Below, piece by piece: positions 1,189 through 47,762 of a DNA stretch of 49,481 bases (the first letter of the stretch is position 1; each line of letters starts with the position of its first letter). Under the pieces are notes generated by a model. That model saw only the letters and a program-made list of their open reading frames with translations, was not told the origin of the DNA and ran no database searches. The stretch is from IMG/VR virus record IMGVR_UViG_3300018080_000243, positions 1 through 49,481 of that record. One strand, 5' to 3'. The DNA is from a virus. A program made the position numbers and the translations under genes.

Positions 1189-2846
1189 TGAAACTGCGTG
1201 ACTATCAACAGACGGCGCTTGATGCGATCCACAACGAATTCGGCAACCACCGGCGGACGCTGCTCGTACTGCCGACGGGAACGGGCAAGACCGTGGTCTT
1301 CGCCAAGCTGCTCGAGGAGCTGGTCACCGACGATCAGCGCGGGCTGGTGGTGGCCCATCGCGAAGAGCTGATCGACCAGGCGGCGGACAAGATTCGCCGC
1401 GTAGCCCAGCTCAGCGTGGAAGTTGAAATGGCGGAGCGTTATGCGACCCGCGATCTGGGGGGGCTGCTGACGCCCGCGCAGGTCATCGTCTCGTCGATCC
1501 AGACGCAGTGCGCCGGCTGCCGTGGCCGGGGGCGTATGTCGCAGTTTTCGCCCCAGGATTTCGGCATCATGGTGATCGACGAAGCTCACCACAGCCCGGC
1601 CCGCACCTATCAGCGGACGATCGACTACTACACGCAGCATGAGCGCTTGCGCCTGCTGGGTGTCACCGCCACTCCGGACCGGGCGGACGAGCAGGCCCTC
1701 GGCCGGGTATTTGAGAGCGTCGCGATGGTCTACGAGATCGACGACGCGATCGGCGACGGCTGGCTGGTGCCCGTTCGCCAGCACACGATCGAAGTCCAGG
1801 ACCTGGACTTCTCCGGCATCCGGACCGTGGCCGGGGACCTGAACGCCGGGCAGCTCGCAAGCGTCATGGAATATGAAGCCACCCTGCACGGCGTTGCCCG
1901 CCCCACTTTCGAGATCAGTGACGGGCGCAAGACGCTGTTATTCGCCGCGTCCGTCGCGCACGCCGAGCGATTGTGCGAGATTTTCAACCGCGAGGTGCAC
2001 GACTGCGCCCGGTGGGTGTGCGGGAATACTCCGAAGGACGAACGCCGAAAGCTCTTCCGCGATTACCGGGACGGGAAGTTTTCGATTCTTTGTAACGTCG
2101 GGGTCGCGACCGAGGGGTTCGACGAGCCGGGGATCGAGGTCGTGGCCGTCGCCCGACCGACCAAGAGCCGGGCGCTTTACGCGCAGATGATCGGCCGGGG
2201 CACTCGCCCGCTGCCGGGAATAGTGGACGAGATCGAGGGCGATCGCAAGGACCGCATGGCGGCGATCGCCGCGAGTTCCAAGCAGCACTTGACGGTGCTG
2301 GACTTCGTCGGCAACTCCGGCCAGCATCAGCTTATAACGTCCGCGGACATCCTGGGCGGCAAGTTCGATGACGACGTTATCGCCCGCGCGACCAAAGCGA
2401 TCAAGAAGGCGGGGGCCGACGTGGACGTTTCGGAGGAGCTTCGCAAGGCGGCCCGCGAGCTGGCGGCGGAGGAGGAACAGGAGAGTCGCCGGCACATCCT
2501 GCCGAAGGTCAAGTACCGGTCCGAGGAGGTCGATCCGTTCAAGCTCTTTCAGGTCCGGCCCCGGCGCGTGCGTGGCTGGGACAAGGGGCGGGCGATCACC
2601 GACCGCCAGCGGGCATTCCTCGAGAAACGCGGGATCGACTGTGCGAAGCTGGACTTCACCAAGGCGTCGAGCTTGATCGGGGACCTGATCCGGCGAATGG
2701 ACGAGGGGCTCTGCACGTACAAGCAGGCCAGGCGGTTGCGCATGAACGGGGTCGACCCGCGGCGGTTGACGTTCCAAGAGGCGTCCGCCGAGATCACGAA
2801 GATCGCCGAGCGGCAGGGTTGGAATAAGAGCAGGAAGACCGGATGA
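1185..2846 (+). CDS. Superfamily 2 DEAH-box helicase
   Basis: The 553-residue product has the SF2 motifs in order: Walker A PTGTGKT (30-36), DEAH box (132-135), TAT (161-163), motif V region GVATEGFD (about 306-313) and motif VI QMIGRGTRP (334-342). It resembles the ResIII/RadD type of ATP-dependent DNA translocase or helicase used in recombination and repair. A CxxC pair (109-112, CAGC) precedes the DEAH box. The C-terminal 150 residues, rich in charged helices, are not recognised. It overlaps the ParB-domain gene by ATGA and the next gene by ATGA, so the three form a tight operon. It is not a DnaB-type replicative helicase. Confidence 0.92.
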   Translation: MMKLRDYQQTALDAIHNEFGNHRRTLLVLPTGTGKTVVFAKLLEELVTDDQRGLVVAHREELIDQAADKIRRVAQLSVEVEMAERYATRDLGGLLTPAQVIVSSIQTQCAGCRGRGRMSQFSPQDFGIMVIDEAHHSPARTYQRTIDYYTQHERLRLLGVTATPDRADEQALGRVFESVAMVYEIDDAIGDGWLVPVRQHTIEVQDLDFSGIRTVAGDLNAGQLASVMEYEATLHGVARPTFEISDGRKTLLFAASVAHAERLCEIFNREVHDCARWVCGNTPKDERRKLFRDYRDGKFSILCNVGVATEGFDEPGIEVVAVARPTKSRALYAQMIGRGTRPLPGIVDEIEGDRKDRMAAIAASSKQHLTVLDFVGNSGQHQLITSADILGGKFDDDVIARATKAIKKAGADVDVSEELRKAARELAAEEEQESRRHILPKVKYRSEEVDPFKLFQVRPRRVRGWDKGRAITDRQRAFLEKRGIDCAKLDFTKASSLIGDLIRRMDEGLCTYKQARRLRMNGVDPRRLTFQEASAEITKIAERQGWNKSRKTG

Positions 2847-3442
2847 GCTGGAAAGACGACCAATTAGGTCAGGATTTCGGCGAATACGCGACCTTGCACT
2901 TCGCCCTCGTGGCGGAGTACGAACAGGCGATGTTGTCCTACTTGTGGGACGATGCGACCCGCGGCGAGGCGCAGGAAGCGTGCCGAGTGCATCGCATCGG
3001 GCCCCAGACGTACGTCTACAAGCACAACCGCTGGCTGGCGGAGCGGGCGATGCGGGGGAGCTTCCCGGACGCGACGAGCTTGGCGCGAGCGAGCTGCGCG
3101 GCCGGCGACCCGATCTTCCCCATCCGGCCGTACAAGGAACCGTGGACAATTGAAGATATAGTCGAGAACCTGGCTCGCGACATCTACAACCATCTTGACC
3201 CCGACCGCCGGGCGTGCGTCTGCCGCTACTGCCCCGAGGACGTGGCCTGGGCGATCCAGGAGCTGGCCACACGCCGCAAGACGAGCCGGCGGTACCTGAA
3301 GATGGCAGAGCGGCTGATGAGCCGCGGAATCTGGCCGGACGACCCGGAACTGCGGCCAGACGAGAACTGGTGGACGGAGAAGATGAACCCCGGACGGTGG
3401 ACGGACCGGCTGATGGGAGAAAATTCTTCAGAAAGCCCTTGA
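2843..3442 (+). CDS. Unknown protein (199 aa), helicase operon
   Basis: Starts at an ATGA overlap with the helicase stop. The product is soluble and rich in tryptophan and charged residues, with a CVCRYC cluster (C125, C127, C130) that could bind metal. No family was recognised. It is the last gene before a 1.1-kb non-coding stretch; the stop codon lies inside the -35 element proposed for the structured RNA. Confidence 0.75.
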   Translation: MSWKDDQLGQDFGEYATLHFALVAEYEQAMLSYLWDDATRGEAQEACRVHRIGPQTYVYKHNRWLAERAMRGSFPDATSLARASCAAGDPIFPIRPYKEPWTIEDIVENLARDIYNHLDPDRRACVCRYCPEDVAWAIQELATRRKTSRRYLKMAERLMSRGIWPDDPELRPDENWWTEKMNPGRWTDRLMGENSSESP

Positions 3443-3467
3443 CCGCCGGGCGATCGTGTGGTAGGTT
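3439..3467 (+). promoter_or_regulatory. Candidate promoter of the structured RNA
   Basis: TTGACC (3439-3444, five of six consensus bases) is separated by 17 bp from TAGGTT (3462-3467, three of six). The predicted start, about seven bases downstream, falls at 3474, exactly the first paired base of the first long helix. This agreement supports it despite the weak -10. Confidence 0.5.
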
Positions 3468-3473
3468 GTAAGC

Positions 3474-4097
3474 AGCATGACAGAGAAGCATACCAATCAA
3501 AGCCTTCGCTCTCCGGCACCGTTAGGCTCTTGCCGTTCGCGCGGTATGCTGTCTGTCATGCTCCGGTGTCGGGGACCGAGGGCTTTGAATCTCTCCCGTG
3601 CTGCGTTTTGCTCGCAGGCTGGAGTCGATCACACTCTCTCCCGTCGATGCCCGCAATCGCCCCCGGAACCCTTCGCTCGTGGTTCGTTCAGGCTCCTAGG
3701 CGTGAACCGGGCATCGACGGGGGAGACCTCTTTGAACTCTTTTCGCGAGCCCCCCCGGTGGTTAGTCTTTGCCGGCCATCGAGGGGGCGCTGGCCTTTAC
3801 TCCCCGCCCGGGCCCAGCCCTCGCGGCGTCGTAATGGCGCCGTGTGCGCCCGGGCGGTGCTTGACTTTTAAGCCCCGTTCGGGAAGCAGATCGACCAGAC
3901 CAGATCTGACTTCGACACCCTTCCCGGTCAACCGTGCGGGGCTCGCGCGTCTTTCACCCTCCTACCCGCCCCTGGGAACCCAGACATGCCCAGGGGCGGG
4001 GCCTGAGTTTTCCGAGGCCGCATCATCCGCAATGAGAACCGTAGTTAAGAAGAGTGACGCCGGTTCGCCCGGACGATCGTGTGATGCGGCCTTTTTT
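3474..4097 (+). ncRNA. Candidate large structured non-coding RNA (~620 nt)
   Basis: This non-coding stretch is packed with long inverted repeats. Helix A: 3474-3494 with 3543-3562 (19 pairs, one small internal loop). Helix B: 3495-3520 with 3565-3590 (24 of 26 positions pair, three as G-U). Helix C: 3635-3653 with 3708-3726 (19 pairs, one G-U). Helix E: 3804-3813 with 3848-3857 (10). Nested arm F/G/H: 3871-3877 with 3937-3943, 3880-3886 with 3920-3926, and 3887-3892 with 3903-3908. Helix I: 3965-3976 with 3989-4000 (12). Closing terminator helix 4015-4025 with 4082-4092, then six Ts. Wobble pairs among the differences fit selection on RNA rather than DNA. A and B interlock and cannot both form fully. 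Size and complexity recall ROOL/GOLLD-type ornate phage RNAs, but no family identity is claimed. A frame open across it has an implausible composition. Confidence 0.65.
4015..4097 (+). terminator. Intrinsic terminator with a long-loop stem
   Basis: An 11-bp perfect stem (4015-4025 with 4082-4092, GGCCGCATCA against TGATGCGGCC plus an A-T pair) encloses 56 bases and is followed directly by six Ts (4092-4097). It would end the structured RNA. The large enclosed segment is unusual; the terminator at 47763 has almost the same layout. Confidence 0.6.
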
Positions 4098-4588
4098 AGA
4101 CGACAATGCGGTTTTGTAGCGACAGCGGTTCCGCAACGTTTTATCAAAAACCACGGCAAGAACGGCGCAAGACGACAGAATGCCAACCGCGGTTACGCCG
4201 CTGCGGGCGCCATGCTCCCAGCAGTTCCTCGCACTACACTACTAAATCCGGGCACTGCCACCCAGCAACCCGGTGGGCGACCAGGTGCGAGTCTTACAGG
4301 GAGAGCCAAGACTGACGACCTGAGGCACACCCCTGGTTCAATTTTCGTGGCCAACCTCGGAAATTGGCGAATGCCGCACGCAAATATAGGGCGTTTGCGT
4401 GTGGAAAATCGCACAGAACGTACAGCCTGTACACGACGGCCGTTACGGCTGTAACGTGTGGCACTGTACGGACTGGAGCAAGGGGGAGGAATCGAAGACG
4501 AATCGCCCCAGGTCGCCCAGAATGGGGGGCGGTCTGTGCCTGTCACCAGCACGGCGGACAAATTACAGATGCACTTTGACGAGGTAAC
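4098..4588 (+). other. Non-coding stretch with further inverted repeats
   Basis: No credible gene is seen. The stretch holds hairpin-forming repeats: AGTCTT/AAGACT with flanking CAGGT/ACCTG (about 4284-4322), a perfect 8-bp CACGCAAA/TTTGCGTG dyad (4377-4401) around TATAGG, and a cluster at 4419-4470 with outer CGTACA/TGTACG and interlocked inner stems (4421-4427 with 4447-4453; 4431-4435 with 4455-4459). It may be the leader of the RusA-led operon or a second structured RNA. Confidence 0.4.
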
Positions 4589-5050
4589 GTGATAGAGGCA
4601 AAAGTAAGGCGGGAGATGGATGTTTGGTTGCCGGGACGTGCAATTCCAAAGGGGTCGTGGCGGCACATTGGGGGGGGGCGTTTGATACCGGATTCGCTTG
4701 GGCTACGCGAGTGGGAAACGCGGGTTCGGGCTGCTTTGGCCGCTTGGTCTCCGGCGATAGAGCCCAGTACGAGGGCGTTTATTCTCACGGCAGAGTTTTA
4801 TTTTCGTCGGCCGAAGGCCCATTTCAACGCACGTGGGGAGCTGCGGGCGAAATACGCCGAACACCACGACTTCCGCCCAGTGGGCCCGGATGTCGACAAG
4901 CTTCTACGGGCCATCTGTGACGCCGCCTCGGGCGTGGTCTACGTCGACGATCGGCAGGTGGTACAAGTGACGGCAACAAAATACTGGCGGAGAACCCGCG
5001 AAGGAGTGGAGGGTATGCTCCTACGGATTGAGGAGTTGGAGGGGCCGTGA
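4589..5050 (+). CDS. rusA: RusA-family Holliday junction resolvase
   Basis: The 153-residue product has the RusA signature: GPDVDK (99-104) and VVYVDDRQV (116-124) hold the acidic residues (D101, D103, D120/D121) that correspond to the metal-binding catalytic aspartates of RusA. The enzyme cuts four-way junctions as a dimer, resolving recombination or replication intermediates before packaging. GTG at 4589 is taken as start because GAGG lies seven bases upstream; an ATG at 4616 is the alternative. It sits behind the structured RNA region and ahead of the primase group, fitting a role in replication. Confidence 0.88.
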   Translation: MIEAKVRREMDVWLPGRAIPKGSWRHIGGGRLIPDSLGLREWETRVRAALAAWSPAIEPSTRAFILTAEFYFRRPKAHFNARGELRAKYAEHHDFRPVGPDVDKLLRAICDAASGVVYVDDRQVVQVTATKYWRRTREGVEGMLLRIEELEGP

Positions 5051-5079: not shown

Positions 5080-6075
5080 ATGACCACCAATATCCACCCC
5101 GACGACGGATGTGCGATGCTCAACGTGTCGAAGCCTTTGCCCGATCGAGAGTTCATCCGCCGGTTGCGGGCGATCATGCCGACCGACGGTCCGCGGCTGC
5201 CGATCGTAGCCGGCGGCGGGAACTGGGGGCCGGGTTGGGAAATCTCGAACCAGGCCCATTGGACTTATGCCCGGCGGGTGTTCGGGCTGGTGATTGACCA
5301 GTTGGACGTCTCGTCCACAACGCACGCGGCGTTCAAGCTGGCGATCGAAGCGGGGGCGAAGCCTTTCGTGCGGCTAACCTTCGGGGGGATGGATCGCGTC
5401 TTGAGCATCTCGGACTTGACTGGGGGCCCAATCTTCGCTCGCGAGCTGGCGGGCGACGCAGCGTTCCTCGCGGATTGCGCAACAGTTGCCGAGTGCTGCG
5501 GCGGGTCGATCTACGCGGTGATTCTGGACGGTACGCGAATATCTCGGCGCGTGAACACCAAGGACAATGAGGTGCTCTGGCTGGCCGGACGCAGGCTCCA
5601 GATGATGATCCGAGCGGTGCTGGGCGACGACGTGCTTATCATCGGGTACCCGCACCATCCGCATCGAGCACATTGGGCGTTCAGCGATCGCCCGGGGGCG
5701 CGGGGGGCGCTGTTCGGGTACGCGACCGACAGTTACTATCCCTCGGTGCCGGCCGACGACGCCGAGCCCCATCGCACGCTGCGCAATCTGCTCTGGTTTT
5801 GCCGCGGGCGGGGGCTGTCCGGGTCGCTGCTGTTCACGCGCTTCGGGCAGGGCTGGGGCAACGGGCCCGGGGGGTGGAGTGCCGATCTGCGTTACCCACT
5901 GCACGAGACGCGGGACTTCGCCAAGCTGCTATTGTGTGACGACGAGTTCCGCGATGTGGAGCTTCTGGTCGATCAGTCGGCGTTCAGCCCGGCGGCGATG
6001 ACGTGGTCGCGTCATTTCCTCGCTTACGCCGCGGAGTGGGCGCGGATTCACGGGGTTTCGGATGCGGGACTTTGA
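5080..6075 (+). CDS. Unknown protein, TIM-barrel-like (331 aa)
   Basis: No family recognised with confidence. The sequence alternates predicted hydrophobic strands and helices with acidic residues at strand ends (AVILDGTR, DVLIIGY, GYATDSYYP, GSLLFTRFGQGW, VELLVDQ), a pattern seen in TIM barrels including glycoside hydrolases. There is no signal peptide. It lies between the resolvase and the primase and overlaps the primase start by 14 bases, so it is expressed with replication genes. It could be an enzyme on nucleotides, sugars or nucleic acid; nothing decides this. Confidence 0.75.
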   Translation: MTTNIHPDDGCAMLNVSKPLPDREFIRRLRAIMPTDGPRLPIVAGGGNWGPGWEISNQAHWTYARRVFGLVIDQLDVSSTTHAAFKLAIEAGAKPFVRLTFGGMDRVLSISDLTGGPIFARELAGDAAFLADCATVAECCGGSIYAVILDGTRISRRVNTKDNEVLWLAGRRLQMMIRAVLGDDVLIIGYPHHPHRAHWAFSDRPGARGALFGYATDSYYPSVPADDAEPHRTLRNLLWFCRGRGLSGSLLFTRFGQGWGNGPGGWSADLRYPLHETRDFAKLLLCDDEFRDVELLVDQSAFSPAAMTWSRHFLAYAAEWARIHGVSDAGL

Positions 6076-7384
6076 ACTCAAGAAAAGGCAGATCGTCGAG
6101 CGCGTCGATCTCGTGGCCCTCGCATCGGAAGACGTGCGGATGAAGCGAAGCGGGCGGCGCTGGGTAGGGCTTTGCCCGTTTCACGCGGAGAAGACGCCGT
6201 CGTTCGTCGTCAGTCAGGACGTGGGACTGTTCAAATGTTTCGGCTGCGGGAAGGGCGGGGACGTGTTCTCCTACGTCCAGGCCCGCGAGAACGTCAGCTT
6301 CATGGAAGCGATGCGAATACTGGCCGATCGGGCCGGCGTGAAGCTCGACGAGGCCCCCTCCGGCAGTTCCGGGGAGCCTGACCGAGTGGAGCTGGCGAAG
6401 GTCAACGCCTGGGCCCTGACGTTTTTCCGCTCCAACCTGTTGAATGGCGCCGCCGGGCGTCACGCCCGCGCCTATCTTCAAAGTCGCGGAATATCCGAGG
6501 CGATCGCCGAACGGTTCAATCTCGGGCTGGCGACCGATGGGGGGCAGAGTCTGAGGGATGCCGCCGGGCGCGCGAGGATCACCTTCCCGCTGCTCCACGC
6601 CGCCGACCTGGTTCGCGCCGATGGCTCCAATCGAGTTTACCCCACGTTTCGCAATCGTCTGATGTTTCCGATCCGGGATGCTACCGGGCGGGTGGTGGGG
6701 TTCGGGGGCCGGACTCTGGTGGGCGATCAAGCCAAGTATCTGAACACCCGGCAGAATGCGCTCTTCGACAAAGGCCGCGGGCTGTACGGTATCGAGCTGG
6801 CGCGTCAGGCGATTGCGCAGTGCGGGCGGGCGGTGGTCGTTGAGGGCTATACCGATTGTATCGCTGCCCACCAAGCGGGCTGCAAGGAGACCGTGGCGTC
6901 GCTCGGGACGGCGATGACCGCAGCCCAAGTCGACCTGCTGCACCGTTACAGTGACCAGCTTATCCTGCTCTTCGATTCGGACAAGGCCGGTGAAGCGGCG
7001 GCGGAGCGGGCGATCGTAGTGGCCGTGCCTCGCGGCGTGCACGTCCGGTTGGCCCGCATCCCGTCGGGCAAGGACCCCGACGAATTCCTCAGGAGTGCCG
7101 GAGCGGCGGGGTTTTGTGGACTGTTGGACGCCGCGGTTGACGCCCTCGAATTCAAATGGGGCCGGCTTCAGGCACAGTTCGCGGCCCACGCTTCCGACGG
7201 TGCGCACCGGGCGGCGCATCTGGAGTTCCTTCGGCTGGTGGGCACGGCTCTCGCCGGGGGAGACGAGATTCAAACGGGACTGGTGGCCAACCGAGTAGCG
7301 CGACTGGTCGGGCTCGACGGCCGCGAGGTTTATCGCCTGATGACGCGATTGCGGCACAATACCCCGCGCTCCTCACCCCAATAA
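6062..7384 (+). CDS. dnaG: DnaG-type DNA primase
   Basis: The 440-residue protein has a CHC2 zinc-binding domain (C38, H41, C59, C62 in LCPFH and CFGCG), the RNA polymerase core (about 110-250) and a Toprim domain with VEGYTD (E261) and DSDKAG (D305, D307). It makes RNA primers for DNA synthesis. It is shorter than chromosomal DnaG (about 580-600 residues) and the C-terminal helicase-binding domain appears reduced. No DnaB-type helicase or DNA polymerase was recognised in the window, so it probably works with host replisome parts. It ends the rightward early arm, tail to tail with the leftward arm. Confidence 0.95.
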   Translation: MRDFELKKRQIVERVDLVALASEDVRMKRSGRRWVGLCPFHAEKTPSFVVSQDVGLFKCFGCGKGGDVFSYVQARENVSFMEAMRILADRAGVKLDEAPSGSSGEPDRVELAKVNAWALTFFRSNLLNGAAGRHARAYLQSRGISEAIAERFNLGLATDGGQSLRDAAGRARITFPLLHAADLVRADGSNRVYPTFRNRLMFPIRDATGRVVGFGGRTLVGDQAKYLNTRQNALFDKGRGLYGIELARQAIAQCGRAVVVEGYTDCIAAHQAGCKETVASLGTAMTAAQVDLLHRYSDQLILLFDSDKAGEAAAERAIVVAVPRGVHVRLARIPSGKDPDEFLRSAGAAGFCGLLDAAVDALEFKWGRLQAQFAAHASDGAHRAAHLEFLRLVGTALAGGDEIQTGLVANRVARLVGLDGREVYRLMTRLRHNTPRSSPQ

Positions 7385-8901: not shown

Positions 8902-9582
8902 TCACTCTCCAGGTTCGTCCGCGACCGCTTCTTGTGCCAGGCGGTCGAGGTCCAGTGTTCCCGATATTCGTGCCGTGTCCTCCACCGCTGTCGCCGCCCA
9001 CTCCGTCCCCGCCCAATCGCCCGCCTCCGCCGCCGCCCATGCCGCCCCCGCCGCCGCGCATGCCGCCGCCTCCGCTGGCCATACCGCCGCCTCCGCCGGC
9101 CATGCCGCCGCGGTTATCGCCGCCCCCGCCGCCGCGGTTATCGCCGCGTTCTCCGCCTCCGCCGCCGCCTGTCGGCTGCGGTTTTTGCCGGCAAGCCAAT
9201 CATTGGCCCAGTCCAGCCATGCGGGCTCGGAGTAAACTTCGCGTGCGCAATAGATTGCGAATCTCAGCCGTTGGGGAAGTGTTACGACCGGCATTGTTAT
9301 CCGGCGAATTGTCGTGCAGCTCCCGACCCCAAGCTTGAGCCCCGCGTCGTTTCGCGTAGGGCCGGCGATCTCGCACTCCCACAAGTGCGCTGATTCGCCG
9401 TAGTTGCCGTGGATCGGATCGAGCATCACGGGGAGCAGCGGGGTAGTCGTCTGGTACAGGTGAATCCAGCCGTCGGTGCACAGACCGCCTTCACCAGGCG
9501 CGGTGTGTCTAACTCCCGCGCCCCATTGAGTCTCGCGATCCAGCCCCGTCTTATCCTCGTCGTCCGTGAATTTTAGATACAT
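8902..9582 (-). CDS. DUF7666-like protein with alanine-rich tail
   Basis: Residues 1-135 resemble a phage family with conserved CTDGWIH and LDPIHGNYG motifs and a C-terminal CAREVYSEPAW segment, often seen in phages of GC-rich hosts (recalled as DUF7666). From about residue 138 the protein becomes low-complexity, alanine-dominated, with short repeats such as AAITAAAGAAITAAAWPAEA. Function unknown. The start has GGAGCG upstream. Confidence 0.75.
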   Translation of the reverse strand: MYLKFTDDEDKTGLDRETQWGAGVRHTAPGEGGLCTDGWIHLYQTTTPLLPVMLDPIHGNYGESAHLWECEIAGPTRNDAGLKLGVGSCTTIRRITMPVVTLPQRLRFAIYCAREVYSEPAWLDWANDWLAGKNRSRQAAAEAENAAITAAAGAAITAAAWPAEAAVWPAEAAACAAAGAAWAAAEAGDWAGTEWAATAVEDTARISGTLDLDRLAQEAVADEPGE

Positions 9583-10111: not shown

Positions 10112-10759
10112 CTAAACTCGGTTGCCTGCGGGCCAGCCCTCGGGCCGCCTGATCGGCATGAGCAGCGCCAGAGCACTAATCCCGTCGGCGTTCGCCTCGA
10201 ACACCAGCGGTCGCCGCGAATCCAAGGGCACGACGAGCCGAATCGATCGATTCTTTTCGTCCGTCGCTATCGCCCTTAAAACGTGGCAGACTTCAGCCAA
10301 GAGCTTCGGGTCGACGTATATCTCCGCCGCGTCCTGCCCGATGGCGTGCTCGGGAATAAGGCTCTCATACTTGGGGTAGGGGAGCTTTGAACACTCGCCT
10401 TCAATCTTGCGGGTCTGCGAGCGGTCCGCGGTCCCTATCGTATACTTTCCGTTGTTCGTCGTTTCATCGATCGCGCGGGCCCCATTCTTCGGGGAGAGCT
10501 TGCTTGCTTCATCCCAGTGGTTCACGGGGATGACGACCTCGAACCCGTTGACCGGCTCGCTATTGAGCGAGCTTTCCGCGTATTCAGGGCGCAGCTCCTT
10601 ATCCGACCACGTCACCTCGATAAGGCGCCGGCCGTCGGTGGCGGCTGCCACACACTTGTCATCCCAGACGCGCCGGACTTGCACGCCATCCGATGCGTAG
10701 CGTGTGGGCTCGGCGTTGGCCAACCTCGATACGTTCATTACCTTCTTGGGGATTAGCAT
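10112..10759 (-). CDS. Sliding-clamp-like protein (DnaN-related, 215 aa)
   Basis: The N-terminal half has the clamp-like pattern of a strand pair followed by AAATDGRRLIEVTW, and the C-terminus has PLVFEANADGISALALLMPIR, which resembles the last strand region of DNA polymerase III beta subunits. Sliding clamps encircle DNA and tether the polymerase. At 215 residues it is about two clamp domains, closer in size to PCNA or T4 gp45 than to the three-domain bacterial clamp, so it may form a trimer. AGGAGG precedes the start. Assignment rests on pattern recognition only. Confidence 0.6.
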   Translation of the reverse strand: MLIPKKVMNVSRLANAEPTRYASDGVQVRRVWDDKCVAAATDGRRLIEVTWSDKELRPEYAESSLNSEPVNGFEVVIPVNHWDEASKLSPKNGARAIDETTNNGKYTIGTADRSQTRKIEGECSKLPYPKYESLIPEHAIGQDAAEIYVDPKLLAEVCHVLRAIATDEKNRSIRLVVPLDSRRPLVFEANADGISALALLMPIRRPEGWPAGNRV

Positions 10760-11231: not shown

Positions 11232-11248
11232 GGTCCTTTACTCCAATC

Positions 11249-11307
11249 GGCTCCCTCGTCAGCCACCGGTCGCCAGCCGGCAGGACGCCCCGCAGGGCGT
11301 TTCGGGG
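11249..11307 (-). repeat. 59-bp post-stop repeat, copy 1
   Basis: Begins directly after the stop codon of the leftward gene at 11308-11547 and contains the hairpin ACGCCC-TGCG-GGGCGT. A copy with three substitutions and one indel lies at 11574-11631, directly after the stop of the next gene upstream. It may be a transcript-processing or attenuation element. Confidence 0.75.
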
Positions 11308-11547: not shown

Positions 11548-11573
11548 TGTCTTGCTCCTTACGTTGTCGCCTT

Positions 11574-11631
11574 GGCTCCCTCATCAGCCACCGGTTGCCA
11601 GCCGGCGGGACGCCCCGCAGGGCGTTTCGGG
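11574..11631 (-). repeat. 58-bp post-stop repeat, copy 2
   Basis: Starts next to the TAA of the leftward gene at 11632-11841 and is nearly identical to 11249-11307, including the GACGCCC/GGGCGT hairpin. Shorter hairpins of the same GACGCC type occur at 11932-11947 and 12180-12196. Confidence 0.75.
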
Positions 11632-11841
11632 TTACAGCAGCCAATCAAGCCGCTCATGCTCCCGGGCGCTAATCCGCGGGTCATCCGGCTGGATCGCCTC
11701 AAAAATCCCGGCACCGAGCCCGATGCCGCCGGGCCAGGTTTGGTCGTCGTCGCACAGCTCAAAGCCCCAGTGATTGTCTGCCGGGCGCTGGACGTAGATT
11801 TCGCCGTTGTTGTGGAGTACGTAGCCTTTGTAGGTTGTCAT
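11632..11841 (-). CDS. Small unknown protein (69 aa)
   Basis: The ATG at 11841 overlaps the stop of the 23-residue frame (TGATG) and AGGA lies seven bases upstream; a GTG at 11847 is the alternative. The product starts MTTYKGYVLHNNGEIYVQRP, a beta-hairpin-like pattern, and ends in a charged helix. No family recognised. Confidence 0.6.
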   Translation of the reverse strand: MTTYKGYVLHNNGEIYVQRPADNHWGFELCDDDQTWPGGIGLGAGIFEAIQPDDPRISAREHERLDWLL

Positions 11842-12192: not shown

Positions 12193-12231
12193 GTCTACAC
12201 TAAGTCTACACCATGATTGCCAGAGGTGCAA
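12193..12231 (-). promoter_or_regulatory. Leftward-arm promoter with direct-repeat operator
   Basis: Read on the minus strand: TTGCAC (12231-12226), 17 bp, TAGACT (12208-12203). A second overlapping candidate is TTGAAA (12241-12236), 17 bp, AATCAT. The -10 lies in the first of two direct repeats GTGTAGAC spaced 11 bp apart (12211-12204 and 12200-12193). The same repeat pair with the same spacing lies in the promoter at 44651. Confidence 0.6.
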
Positions 12232-12330
12232 GCATTTTCAAGTTTTTTTTGCAAGCGGTGGACGGGGAGGCCGTGAGCCCAACGTGAGCCCGATGTGATT
12301 CACGCTGAGCTTACGCCGGGCTCACGAGTC

Positions 12331-12392
12331 CCGTCGCTCCCTGTCGCTCCCCGCGGCTCCCCGTGGCTCCCCACGGCTCCCCACGGCTCCCC
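12331..12392. repeat. 10-bp tandem array, six units
   Basis: Six consecutive units of about CCRYSGCTCC follow one another in strict 10-bp phase with variation only in the middle bases. The phase is close to one DNA turn, so a bound protein would line up on one face. Confidence 0.85.
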
Positions 12393-12419
12393 CAGCGCAA
12401 CCGGCTAAGACGCCACGAG

Positions 12420-12475
12420 TGTCGCCTCGATGTGTCGCCTCAGGTGTCGCCCTGAGTGTCGCCTCACCTGTCGCT
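12420..12475. repeat. 12-13-bp array of TGTCGCC, five units
   Basis: TGTCGCC or TGTCGCT occurs at 12420, 12433, 12445, 12457 and 12469, at 12-13 bp spacing. Confidence 0.8.
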
Positions 12476-12485
12476 ATGGGGGATT

Positions 12486-12511
12486 ATTGGTGGGCAATAT
12501 TGGTAGGCAAT
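12486..12511. repeat. 13-bp tandem duplication
   Basis: ATTGGTGGGCAAT is followed directly by ATTGGTAGGCAAT (one substitution). It is more AT-rich than its surroundings and could be an unwinding element. Confidence 0.8.
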
Positions 12512-12828
12512 ATTTTCTGTCCCGTAGATAAGCGCCCCATTGCCGAGACACTGAAGTGCAACTTCAACAACAGACCCTCACATATCGGACGATTTTACCC
12601 CCATTTGCGCTACCGTGAGGCCGGTTCGCGTTAAGATGACACCTGCCTGACCGCTTACGTGCGCATAATTGTCTGCGCCCTGGGACATCTTTACCACACC
12701 CCCCCGTCCGATTTTGATACATACGCCCCGTATATTCCCACTCCCCCAACTCCCCCATTTCCACCCCAGTCCCCCCGAACTCGCAAGCCCATCTAAGGGC
12801 AGCGGGTTTACAGGTTTGCGCTCAGGTT

Positions 12829-12934
12829 TACTGCCCGAATACTGCCCACTGGTACCCCGTAGATCGGCCTTTTTGACCCCATAAGGGCCGATTACTGTTC
12901 TCGGTTACTGCCTGAATACTGCTCAGGTTACTGC
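12829..12934. repeat. Iteron-like TACTGC repeats
   Basis: TACTGC or TACTGT occurs at 12829, 12840, 12893, 12906, 12917 and 12929, with 11-12 bp spacing inside the two clusters and CAGGTT or CGGTT often just before. This resembles iterons of replication origins. Confidence 0.65.
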
Positions 12935-13371
12935 TCAGGTTGCTATCGATCGGCAGACTGGCGTCATTGATCCGAGGTGTTTCGGGGCCCGCCCCCGGAG
13001 CCGCACAGAAAACAAAGCCCTGGTTTAACCGCCCATAAGGCGTACCGCCTCATAGGCTGCGCCCCGGAGATTTCACGCTCCGGAACCGTCGGTGTTCCCT
13101 CTGCTTACGCCGCCAGCCCCCCAGAGTATGTCCGAGTGGCGTGCCTGTCAATGTAACAAGTTTGTAACAGGTGTGTGGCTTTAGCTTTTGGGGTGTATCG
13201 GGGATTCTGTGGTGCTGAGTGGGGATTTTCTCGGGCGGTTCCCGGTGGAAAATTTTCGTATCGGACTCGATGTGTCGTCACAGCGCGCGAGGTCGCGTGT
13301 CTCTGATCTGAACTTTCAGGGGTTCTGGAATCGGGGGCGTTTGCAGGCTCTCAGCGGGTATGCCAGGGGGT

Positions 13372-13406
13372 TGACACCTCGATTGAAGGTCAGAAACGAG
13401 GTGTCA
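13372..13406. promoter_or_regulatory. Perfect 10-bp dyad (operator candidate)
   Basis: TGACACCTCG and its exact complement CGAGGTGTCA are separated by 15 bases. A TTGACA overlaps the left arm but no good -10 follows at 17 bp. It may be a protein-binding site or a hairpin. Confidence 0.5.
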
Positions 13407-13470
13407 CGCTCGTGCCCAGGGTGTGTCGGGCGCGATAGTTTTCGTGTCGTTCAGTACTCGGTCTCGGGCC

Positions 13471-13544
13471 GGCCCGGGGGTTTGGTGTAAAGGTCGGTCA
13501 AACCACCGCCCCCCCGGGCCTGCGCGGGGTAGCGATCCCCGCTA
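13471..13544 (-). terminator. Hairpins after the leftward gene at 13542
   Basis: Two strong stems lie at the 3' end of the gene: GCGGGG/CCCCGC (13524-13542, loop 7) and GGCCCGGGGG/CCCCCGGGCC (13471-13480 with 13511-13520), the latter with an inner TTTG/CAAA pairing. There is no clear T-run, so termination is inferred from stem strength. Confidence 0.4.
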
Positions 13545-47557: not shown

Positions 47558-47710
47558 ATGGTCAGTTTCACAATATCGCAAGGAGGTGATGCGCCATGGA
47601 CAATTAGGTTTAGGTGCGGGGAAACTCTGGCACCTGTGCTCGTCGGGCCGTTCGTCACCACGGTAACGGCTCGACGAAGGGGCCGCAACCATCGGAAGGG
47701 GGCAATGTGA
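47558..47710 (+). CDS. Tiny basic protein (50 aa), uncertain
   Basis: Frame from an ATG one base after the recT stop to TGA at 47708. The peptide starts MVSFTISQGGDAPWTIRF and ends in a basic tail. Its last 31 bases overlap the tRNA-like element at 47680, so gene and RNA compete for this stretch. The ribosome site is weak, making a real gene doubtful. Confidence 0.35.
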   Translation: MVSFTISQGGDAPWTIRFRCGETLAPVLVGPFVTTVTARRRGRNHRKGAM

Positions 47711-47760
47711 TGTTGCCGGCAGTCTGACACCCTGCCGCCGGTTCGACTCCGGCGCGGCCC
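47680..47760 (+). tRNA. tRNA-Ser-like element (UGA anticodon), unusual
   Basis: A perfect 7-bp acceptor stem (GGGCCGC/GCGGCCC), a canonical T arm (GCCGG TTCGACT CCGGC), a 5-bp anticodon-like stem GGCAA/TTGCC with 7-base loop TGTGATG, and a long variable arm (GGCAG/CTGCC) give a class II layout. The anticodon would be UGA (serine). Deviations: the D arm is cut to about two pairs though it keeps GG, and loop position 33 is G instead of the invariant U. CCA is not encoded. It may be a degenerate, specialised or mimic tRNA. Confidence 0.5.
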
Positions 47761-47762
47761 GT

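Follow-up and report, generated by a model that had tools for sequence, protein, structure and literature searches.

A segment of roughly 620 bases among the DNA-replication genes of a phage, between a helicase operon and the RusA gene, is probably a stand-alone gene for a structured RNA, judging from its sequence. The stretch, here called RNA-A, occupies positions 3474-4097 on the + strand of virus record IMGVR_UViG_3300018080_000243 from IMG/VR; the window analyzed is this whole record of 49,481 bases. A sequence-only reading had proposed a self-contained RNA gene of the ROOL or GOLLD kind. The RNA-gene part of that proposal is supported by the fold, the strand bias, the lack of coding signal, and the placement of a promoter and a terminator, but the family part was not supported since no Rfam family matched at E ≤ 1. 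Being non-coding, structured beyond chance, and provided with a promoter and a terminator as sequence matches, RNA-A appears to belong to the general kind of large structured phage RNA genes.

RNA-A is strongly folded and lacks coding signal

The MFE of RNA-A is −311 kcal/mol, compared with −252.6 ± 8.0 for 100 dinucleotide shuffles, the best of which reached −271.5. This corresponds to a z score of about −7.3. A z score of −16.5, obtained with only 20 shuffles, is an overestimate, and a value of about −7 to −8 is realistic. Among the stretches of 624 nt tested on both strands of the record, RNA-A has the lowest MFE after GC correction. Four perfect Watson-Crick stems of at least 11 bp were observed, compared with 0.25 expected, and the pairs of the MFE fold have a mean probability of 0.90.

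Coding signal was absent in all six frames from about 3443 to 4588. The ORFs across the RNA-A region have scores between −0.26 and −0.42 bits per codon and their codon-position GC is flat; for most genes of the window, the scores lie between +0.19 and +0.40 bits per codon, with a GC3 of 0.7-0.88. RusA also has a low codon score (−0.05), and its gene is secured by homology. A 325-aa ORF at 3477-4454 was rejected as a gene since it scores as non-coding and matches no family, and the other ORFs were rejected likewise. Two motif candidates were dropped as well: the repeated linker motif TTTGAAYTCT, which has one exact copy only, and the motif CCAGAC in two large loops, which is common throughout the window.

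Ends and helices of RNA-A

The promoter-like site TTGACC-N17-TAGGTT claimed in the sequence-only reading is present on the + strand at 3439-3467, with TTGACC at 3439-3444, a 17-nt spacer, TAGGTT at 3462-3467, and a predicted start at A3474. The site resembles a sigma-70 promoter, and its −35 element and the stop codon of the 199-aa gene upstream overlap. The −10 hexamer matches at only three of six positions and the site is missed by a standard 9-of-12 scan, yet it is one of only four such sites when both strands of the window are counted. The rule applied (−35 of at least 5/6, TANNNT, spacer of 16-18 nt) was chosen after the site had been seen and, therefore, this rarity is indicative only. 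At the other end, the terminator domain (4014-4097, + strand) consists of a 13-bp stem (4014-4026/4081-4093), inner helices, and the expected T6 at 4092-4097, which is one of six tracts of at least six Ts on the + strand of the window.

The 19-pair helix described at the predicted start was also recovered. This helix, S1 (3474-3562), has the predicted transcription start as its first base and contains 11 Watson-Crick pairs (3474-3484/3552-3562) and 8 more (3487-3494/3543-3550), separated by a 2x1 internal loop. A second helix, S2 (3497-3588), has 24 pairs, three of them G-U, and one C-C (3497-3521/3564-3588). S1 and S2 cross in the order a-b-a′-b′ with no common base, and both lie within the first 115 nt of RNA-A. 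Ordinary folding programs can display only one of two crossing helices. The MFE fold retains S2, and 3474-3563 folded alone gives S1 at −38.9. Because of the crossing order and the lack of base overlap, we infer that S1 and S2 may form an unusually large pseudoknot, or that S1 may form first and then be remodelled in a co-transcriptional switch. The connectors are 2 and 1 nt long, making a pseudoknot sterically demanding.

The further helices, described as having 6-24 pairs, are present in the predicted fold, all on the + strand. A long arm at 3621-3740 has an outer helix (3621-3628/3732-3740), a 19-bp helix (3635-3653/3708-3726) with an energy of −39.9 kcal/mol, and inner arms at 3655-3684 and 3686-3707. 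It is followed by a 20-pair hairpin at 3745-3794, to which a perfect long-range helix of 10 bp (3744-3753/3938-3947) is a competing alternative, and by a hairpin arm at 3804-3857 (3804-3813/3848-3857, inner helix 3822-3830/3836-3844). Next are the three-helix arm that had been noted at 3871-3943, in which 3871-3882/3932-3943 surrounds 3883-3892/3903-3913 and 3917-3919/3926-3928, and a perfect 12-bp hairpin with a 12-nt loop at 3965-4000.

Alternative or crossing helices in the 5′ domain would also suit a replication primer or copy-control RNA, as would the similar size and the position by replication genes. RNA-A would then follow the logic of RNA II of plasmid ColE1. Against such a role, RNA-A ends in a strong terminator and does not read through to an origin, no antisense promoter was found, and iteron-like repeats are located elsewhere, at 12.3-13.3 kb. 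We consider a primer or copy-control function quite improbable.

A 15-nt direct repeat, CCGG[G/A]CGATCGTGTG (14/15), lies in the promoter spacer (window positions 3446-3460) and again, 623 nt away, within the RNA-A terminator domain (4069-4083). Since this repeat flanks RNA-A and no relatives were found, the region could be imagined as a decayed gene or a small mobile element without function. However, the match between the repeats is only marginally unlikely by chance, structure so extreme would not last in decaying DNA, and there are neither terminal inverted repeats nor a codon signal. This makes decay or a mobile element very improbable indeed.

Strand bias of departures from pairing

The reverse strand of RNA-A also folds well (−299.8), as it would if the helices worked at the DNA level, forming cruciforms or single-strand hairpins at a replication or recombination site by the helicase, RusA, and primase genes. 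Other features agree with a DNA element: the region sits among replication genes, long near-perfect inverted repeats extrude readily, and RusA, which acts on four-way junctions, is encoded next door. In helices shared by the + and − strand folds, however, the isolated departures are six G-U and no A-C (three in RNA-A and three in RNA-B, a second element described below), compared with 48 to 50 in control windows. This agrees with the earlier remark that several differences between helix strands are G-U compatible, and it modestly favors selection on the + strand RNA (p about 0.016), since a DNA element has no reason for a one-strand G-U preference. In addition, the ends of RNA-A match promoter and terminator signals. 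The crossing of S1 and S2 is unlike a simple cruciform, and such an order would not be expected from a simple inverted DNA duplication. Action of the helices in DNA is, therefore, unlikely, and a stand-alone RNA gene is the preferred explanation.

A second structured element lies ahead of rusA

RNA-B is located between RNA-A and rusA, at about 4265-4530 on the + strand, and has an MFE of −122 to −123 (z −5.6 to −5.9). It has a closing helix at 4274-4290/4503-4519 and a four-way junction almost without linker bases (4330-4339/4476-4485, 4340-4365, 4367-4412, and 4414-4475), and its 3′ end is about 60 nt ahead of rusA. Between the two RNAs, 4098-4270 is unstructured (z +1.5). No Rfam family matched RNA-B at E ≤ 5. 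RNA-B is more likely a separate element from RNA-A and is perhaps a structured leader of the rusA-primase mRNA.

Both RNAs could also be cis-acting, with RNA-A as an attenuator or insulator and RNA-B as a structured leader that together control the rusA-primase operon; RusA might even bind the RNA-B junction and regulate itself. The RNA-A terminator would halt transcripts from the upstream operon, and the nearly gapless junction of RNA-B lies in a suitable place just before rusA. However, a structure of 624 nt that has a promoter to itself far exceeds the needs of an attenuator, and binding of RNA by RusA is putative. Cis action is plausible for RNA-B and less so for RNA-A, and we regard the scheme for the pair as improbable.

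Comparison with known RNA families

The covariance-model check suggested for ROOL, GOLLD, HEARO, and group I and II introns came out negative: with Rfam 15, none of these families, nor OLE, nor any other was found at E ≤ 1 at window positions 3300-4300. The only Rfam match elsewhere in the window was Hammerhead_II. The ROOL model (RF03087) gave no match to the window, and this negative result carries weight because the model found a known ROOL, that of plasmid pMP118 (NC_007930), at 130.4 bits. The same model did not match Staphylococcus phage K. The GOLLD negative applies to the Rfam model, with its conserved 3′ domain, at E ≤ 1, the positive control having been run for the ROOL model only. 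By these comparisons, RNA-A is not a ROOL or GOLLD member, nor is it a member of any Rfam family.

ROOL and GOLLD are RNAs of phages and prophages that have no known function, often lie near tRNA islands, and form RNA-only nanocages (PMC12286853); in ROOL, the cage is a homo-octamer. RNA-A resembles ROOL in being phage-borne, non-coding, about 600 nt long, and a gene of its own, with many helices and pseudoknots (PMC12286853), the pseudoknot of RNA-A being a putative one; ROOL env-120 has 659 nt (PMC12286853). The build is different, since perfect stems of at least 9 bp are absent from the pMP118 ROOL, whose z score is about −1, whereas RNA-A has fewer, longer, nearly perfect helices and a z score of about −7. 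In contrast to the frequent location of ROOL near tRNA islands, RNA-A is about 5 kb from the sole tRNA even if the genome is circular. GOLLD is likewise a large phage RNA rich in helices (PMC12286853), but RNA-A has no Rfam match (E ≤ 1), has no tRNA within or adjoining it, and is shorter than a typical GOLLD. OLE is also about 600 nt long and highly structured, but it is a bacterial gene of Bacillota (PMC12054373), and RNA-A again has no Rfam match. Abundant long non-coding RNAs have been reported for phage K (PMC9241854). They too are phage-borne and without known function (PMC9241854), but they adjoin tRNA genes, unlike RNA-A, and the comparison with them is one of description. Overall, RNA-A is like ROOL and GOLLD in size, carrier, and self-contained gene, and unlike them in sequence, context, and helix style.

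Genomic surroundings, phage, and host

The location given for RNA-A between a helicase operon and the resolvase was confirmed. Upstream, Pfam and PHROGs identified a ParB-like protein and a phage-type DEAD/DEAH helicase, and these are joined by the 199-aa orphan (2843-3442, + strand), which has no Pfam, PHROGs, or NCBIfam match. Downstream are the RusA Holliday-junction resolvase (4589-5050, + strand; Pfam PF05866, E 6.8e-14; PHROG 140), a 331-aa orphan, and a DnaG primase. A PD-(D/E)XK nuclease and RecT are encoded at the right end of the record, and the only tRNA of the window is a tRNA-Ser at 47680-47761.

The primase (window 6062-7384) shows 48-61% identity to primases of Planctomycetota assemblies and is closer to these than to any phage primase found. 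This suggests that the phage DnaG is of the Planctomycetota chromosomal type and that its gene was taken from the host. In L068 and L069, the primase is apparently at a chromosomal locus, as seen by ORF layout only. Given the identity to Planctomycetota and the chromosomal-looking loci, the host is likely a Planctomycetota bacterium. The phage is an outlier, and its relatives by structural genes are a 77-kb IMG/VR contig, G006 (L162-L165), and a region of a Planctomycetota genome, G388 (L156-L159), both of which have the terminase and several structural proteins in common with the window at about 25-45% identity. Since the structural proteins of the window have almost no matches in PHROGs or among named phages, the three seem to represent a phage group that is yet to be described. 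A sibling contig of 11 kb (L067, IMGVR_UViG_3300017960_000832) is nearly identical but ends short of RNA-A.

Several other features of the window were seen. At 10112-10759 on the − strand, the NCBIfam model dnaN for the DNA polymerase III beta clamp matches weakly (E 9.7e-8, under the curated cut-off), and a repetitive GC-rich stretch at 8988-9170, in a minus-strand frame, holds eight overlapping copies of a 66-nt reference. About 1.3 kb at 12200-13540 has no clear coding signal and contains 10- and 12-bp tandem repeats and other short direct repeats; this is possibly an origin or control region. Two Hammerhead_II ribozymes are found on the − strand at 11245-11307 and 11570-11632 (44 and 50 bits, Rfam). 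Each precedes a small minus-strand ORF, with 14-23 nt between the ribozyme and the ATG (11231 and 11547). Because of this placement, cleavage by either ribozyme would take the 5′ end off a short phage mRNA, just ahead of the ribosome-binding site.

Search for relatives of the RNAs

By blastn, the RNA-A region had no relative in phages and plasmids, and 4098-4588 had only short chance matches in DNA similarity to the same. Pattern scans with translations of the region, a method that finds close relatives only, confirmed nothing in viral contigs (three frames) or in genome contigs (one frame). No relative of RNA-A was found by blastn in Planctomycetota genomes either (two partly overlapping draws of 392 and 398); three marginal matches of 26-43 nt from the first draw were judged to be chance. 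Single-sequence covariance models of the RNA-B core (R1) and of part of RNA-A (R2) found the window itself and otherwise chance-level scores. One 26-bit covariance match, among 294 genomes, was judged to be chance since a 156-position model was squeezed into 85 nt. None of the viral contigs with helicase or primase neighbors (at most 36% identity) carries the RNA by blastn. Likewise, no comparably structured element was seen in the long gaps of G006 and G388, the nearest related phages. These searches apply to sequence that has not drifted far, and more distant relatives would be missed.

Discussion

A stand-alone RNA gene, transcribed and folded as outlined below, is the best explanation overall, and we put it somewhat above an even chance. 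Transcription would start at the first base of S1 from the promoter-like site and end at the terminator stem with U6, and the + strand would be transcribed together with the replication and recombination genes (ParB-like, helicase, RusA, and primase). Folding would presumably be co-transcriptional, beginning with the 5′ pseudoknot domain, continuing with a row of rigid helical arms, and closing with the terminator stem. RNA-A could then conceivably be a long-lived, trans-acting scaffold or decoy to which its own copies or a phage or host protein are drawn, an action modelled on proposals for ROOL and GOLLD. If RNA-A is a stand-alone RNA gene, we put such a role forward tentatively, as a possibility short of probable. 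We know of no proven function for ROOL, GOLLD, or OLE.

Several points count against this explanation. The −10 hexamer is weak (3/6), and no relative of RNA-A was found. ROOL and GOLLD, which would be the only functional analogy, are built differently and have an unproven function. The two nearest related phages lack a comparable element in their long gaps.

To our knowledge, large structured phage RNAs are few. RNA-A may found a new class of large ornate RNA in viruses of Planctomycetota, distinguished by long, rigid helices and by a 5′ pseudoknot of giant size (19 and 24 bp), and expressed with replication genes and RNA-B; we rate this as a serious possibility that is a little less than evenly likely. 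If true, RNA-A would be a sequence-unrelated candidate from phages of a phylum with little-studied viruses, located among replication rather than tRNA genes. Such RNAs would then have evolved in phages more than once, and RNA-A would offer a second angle on their purpose.
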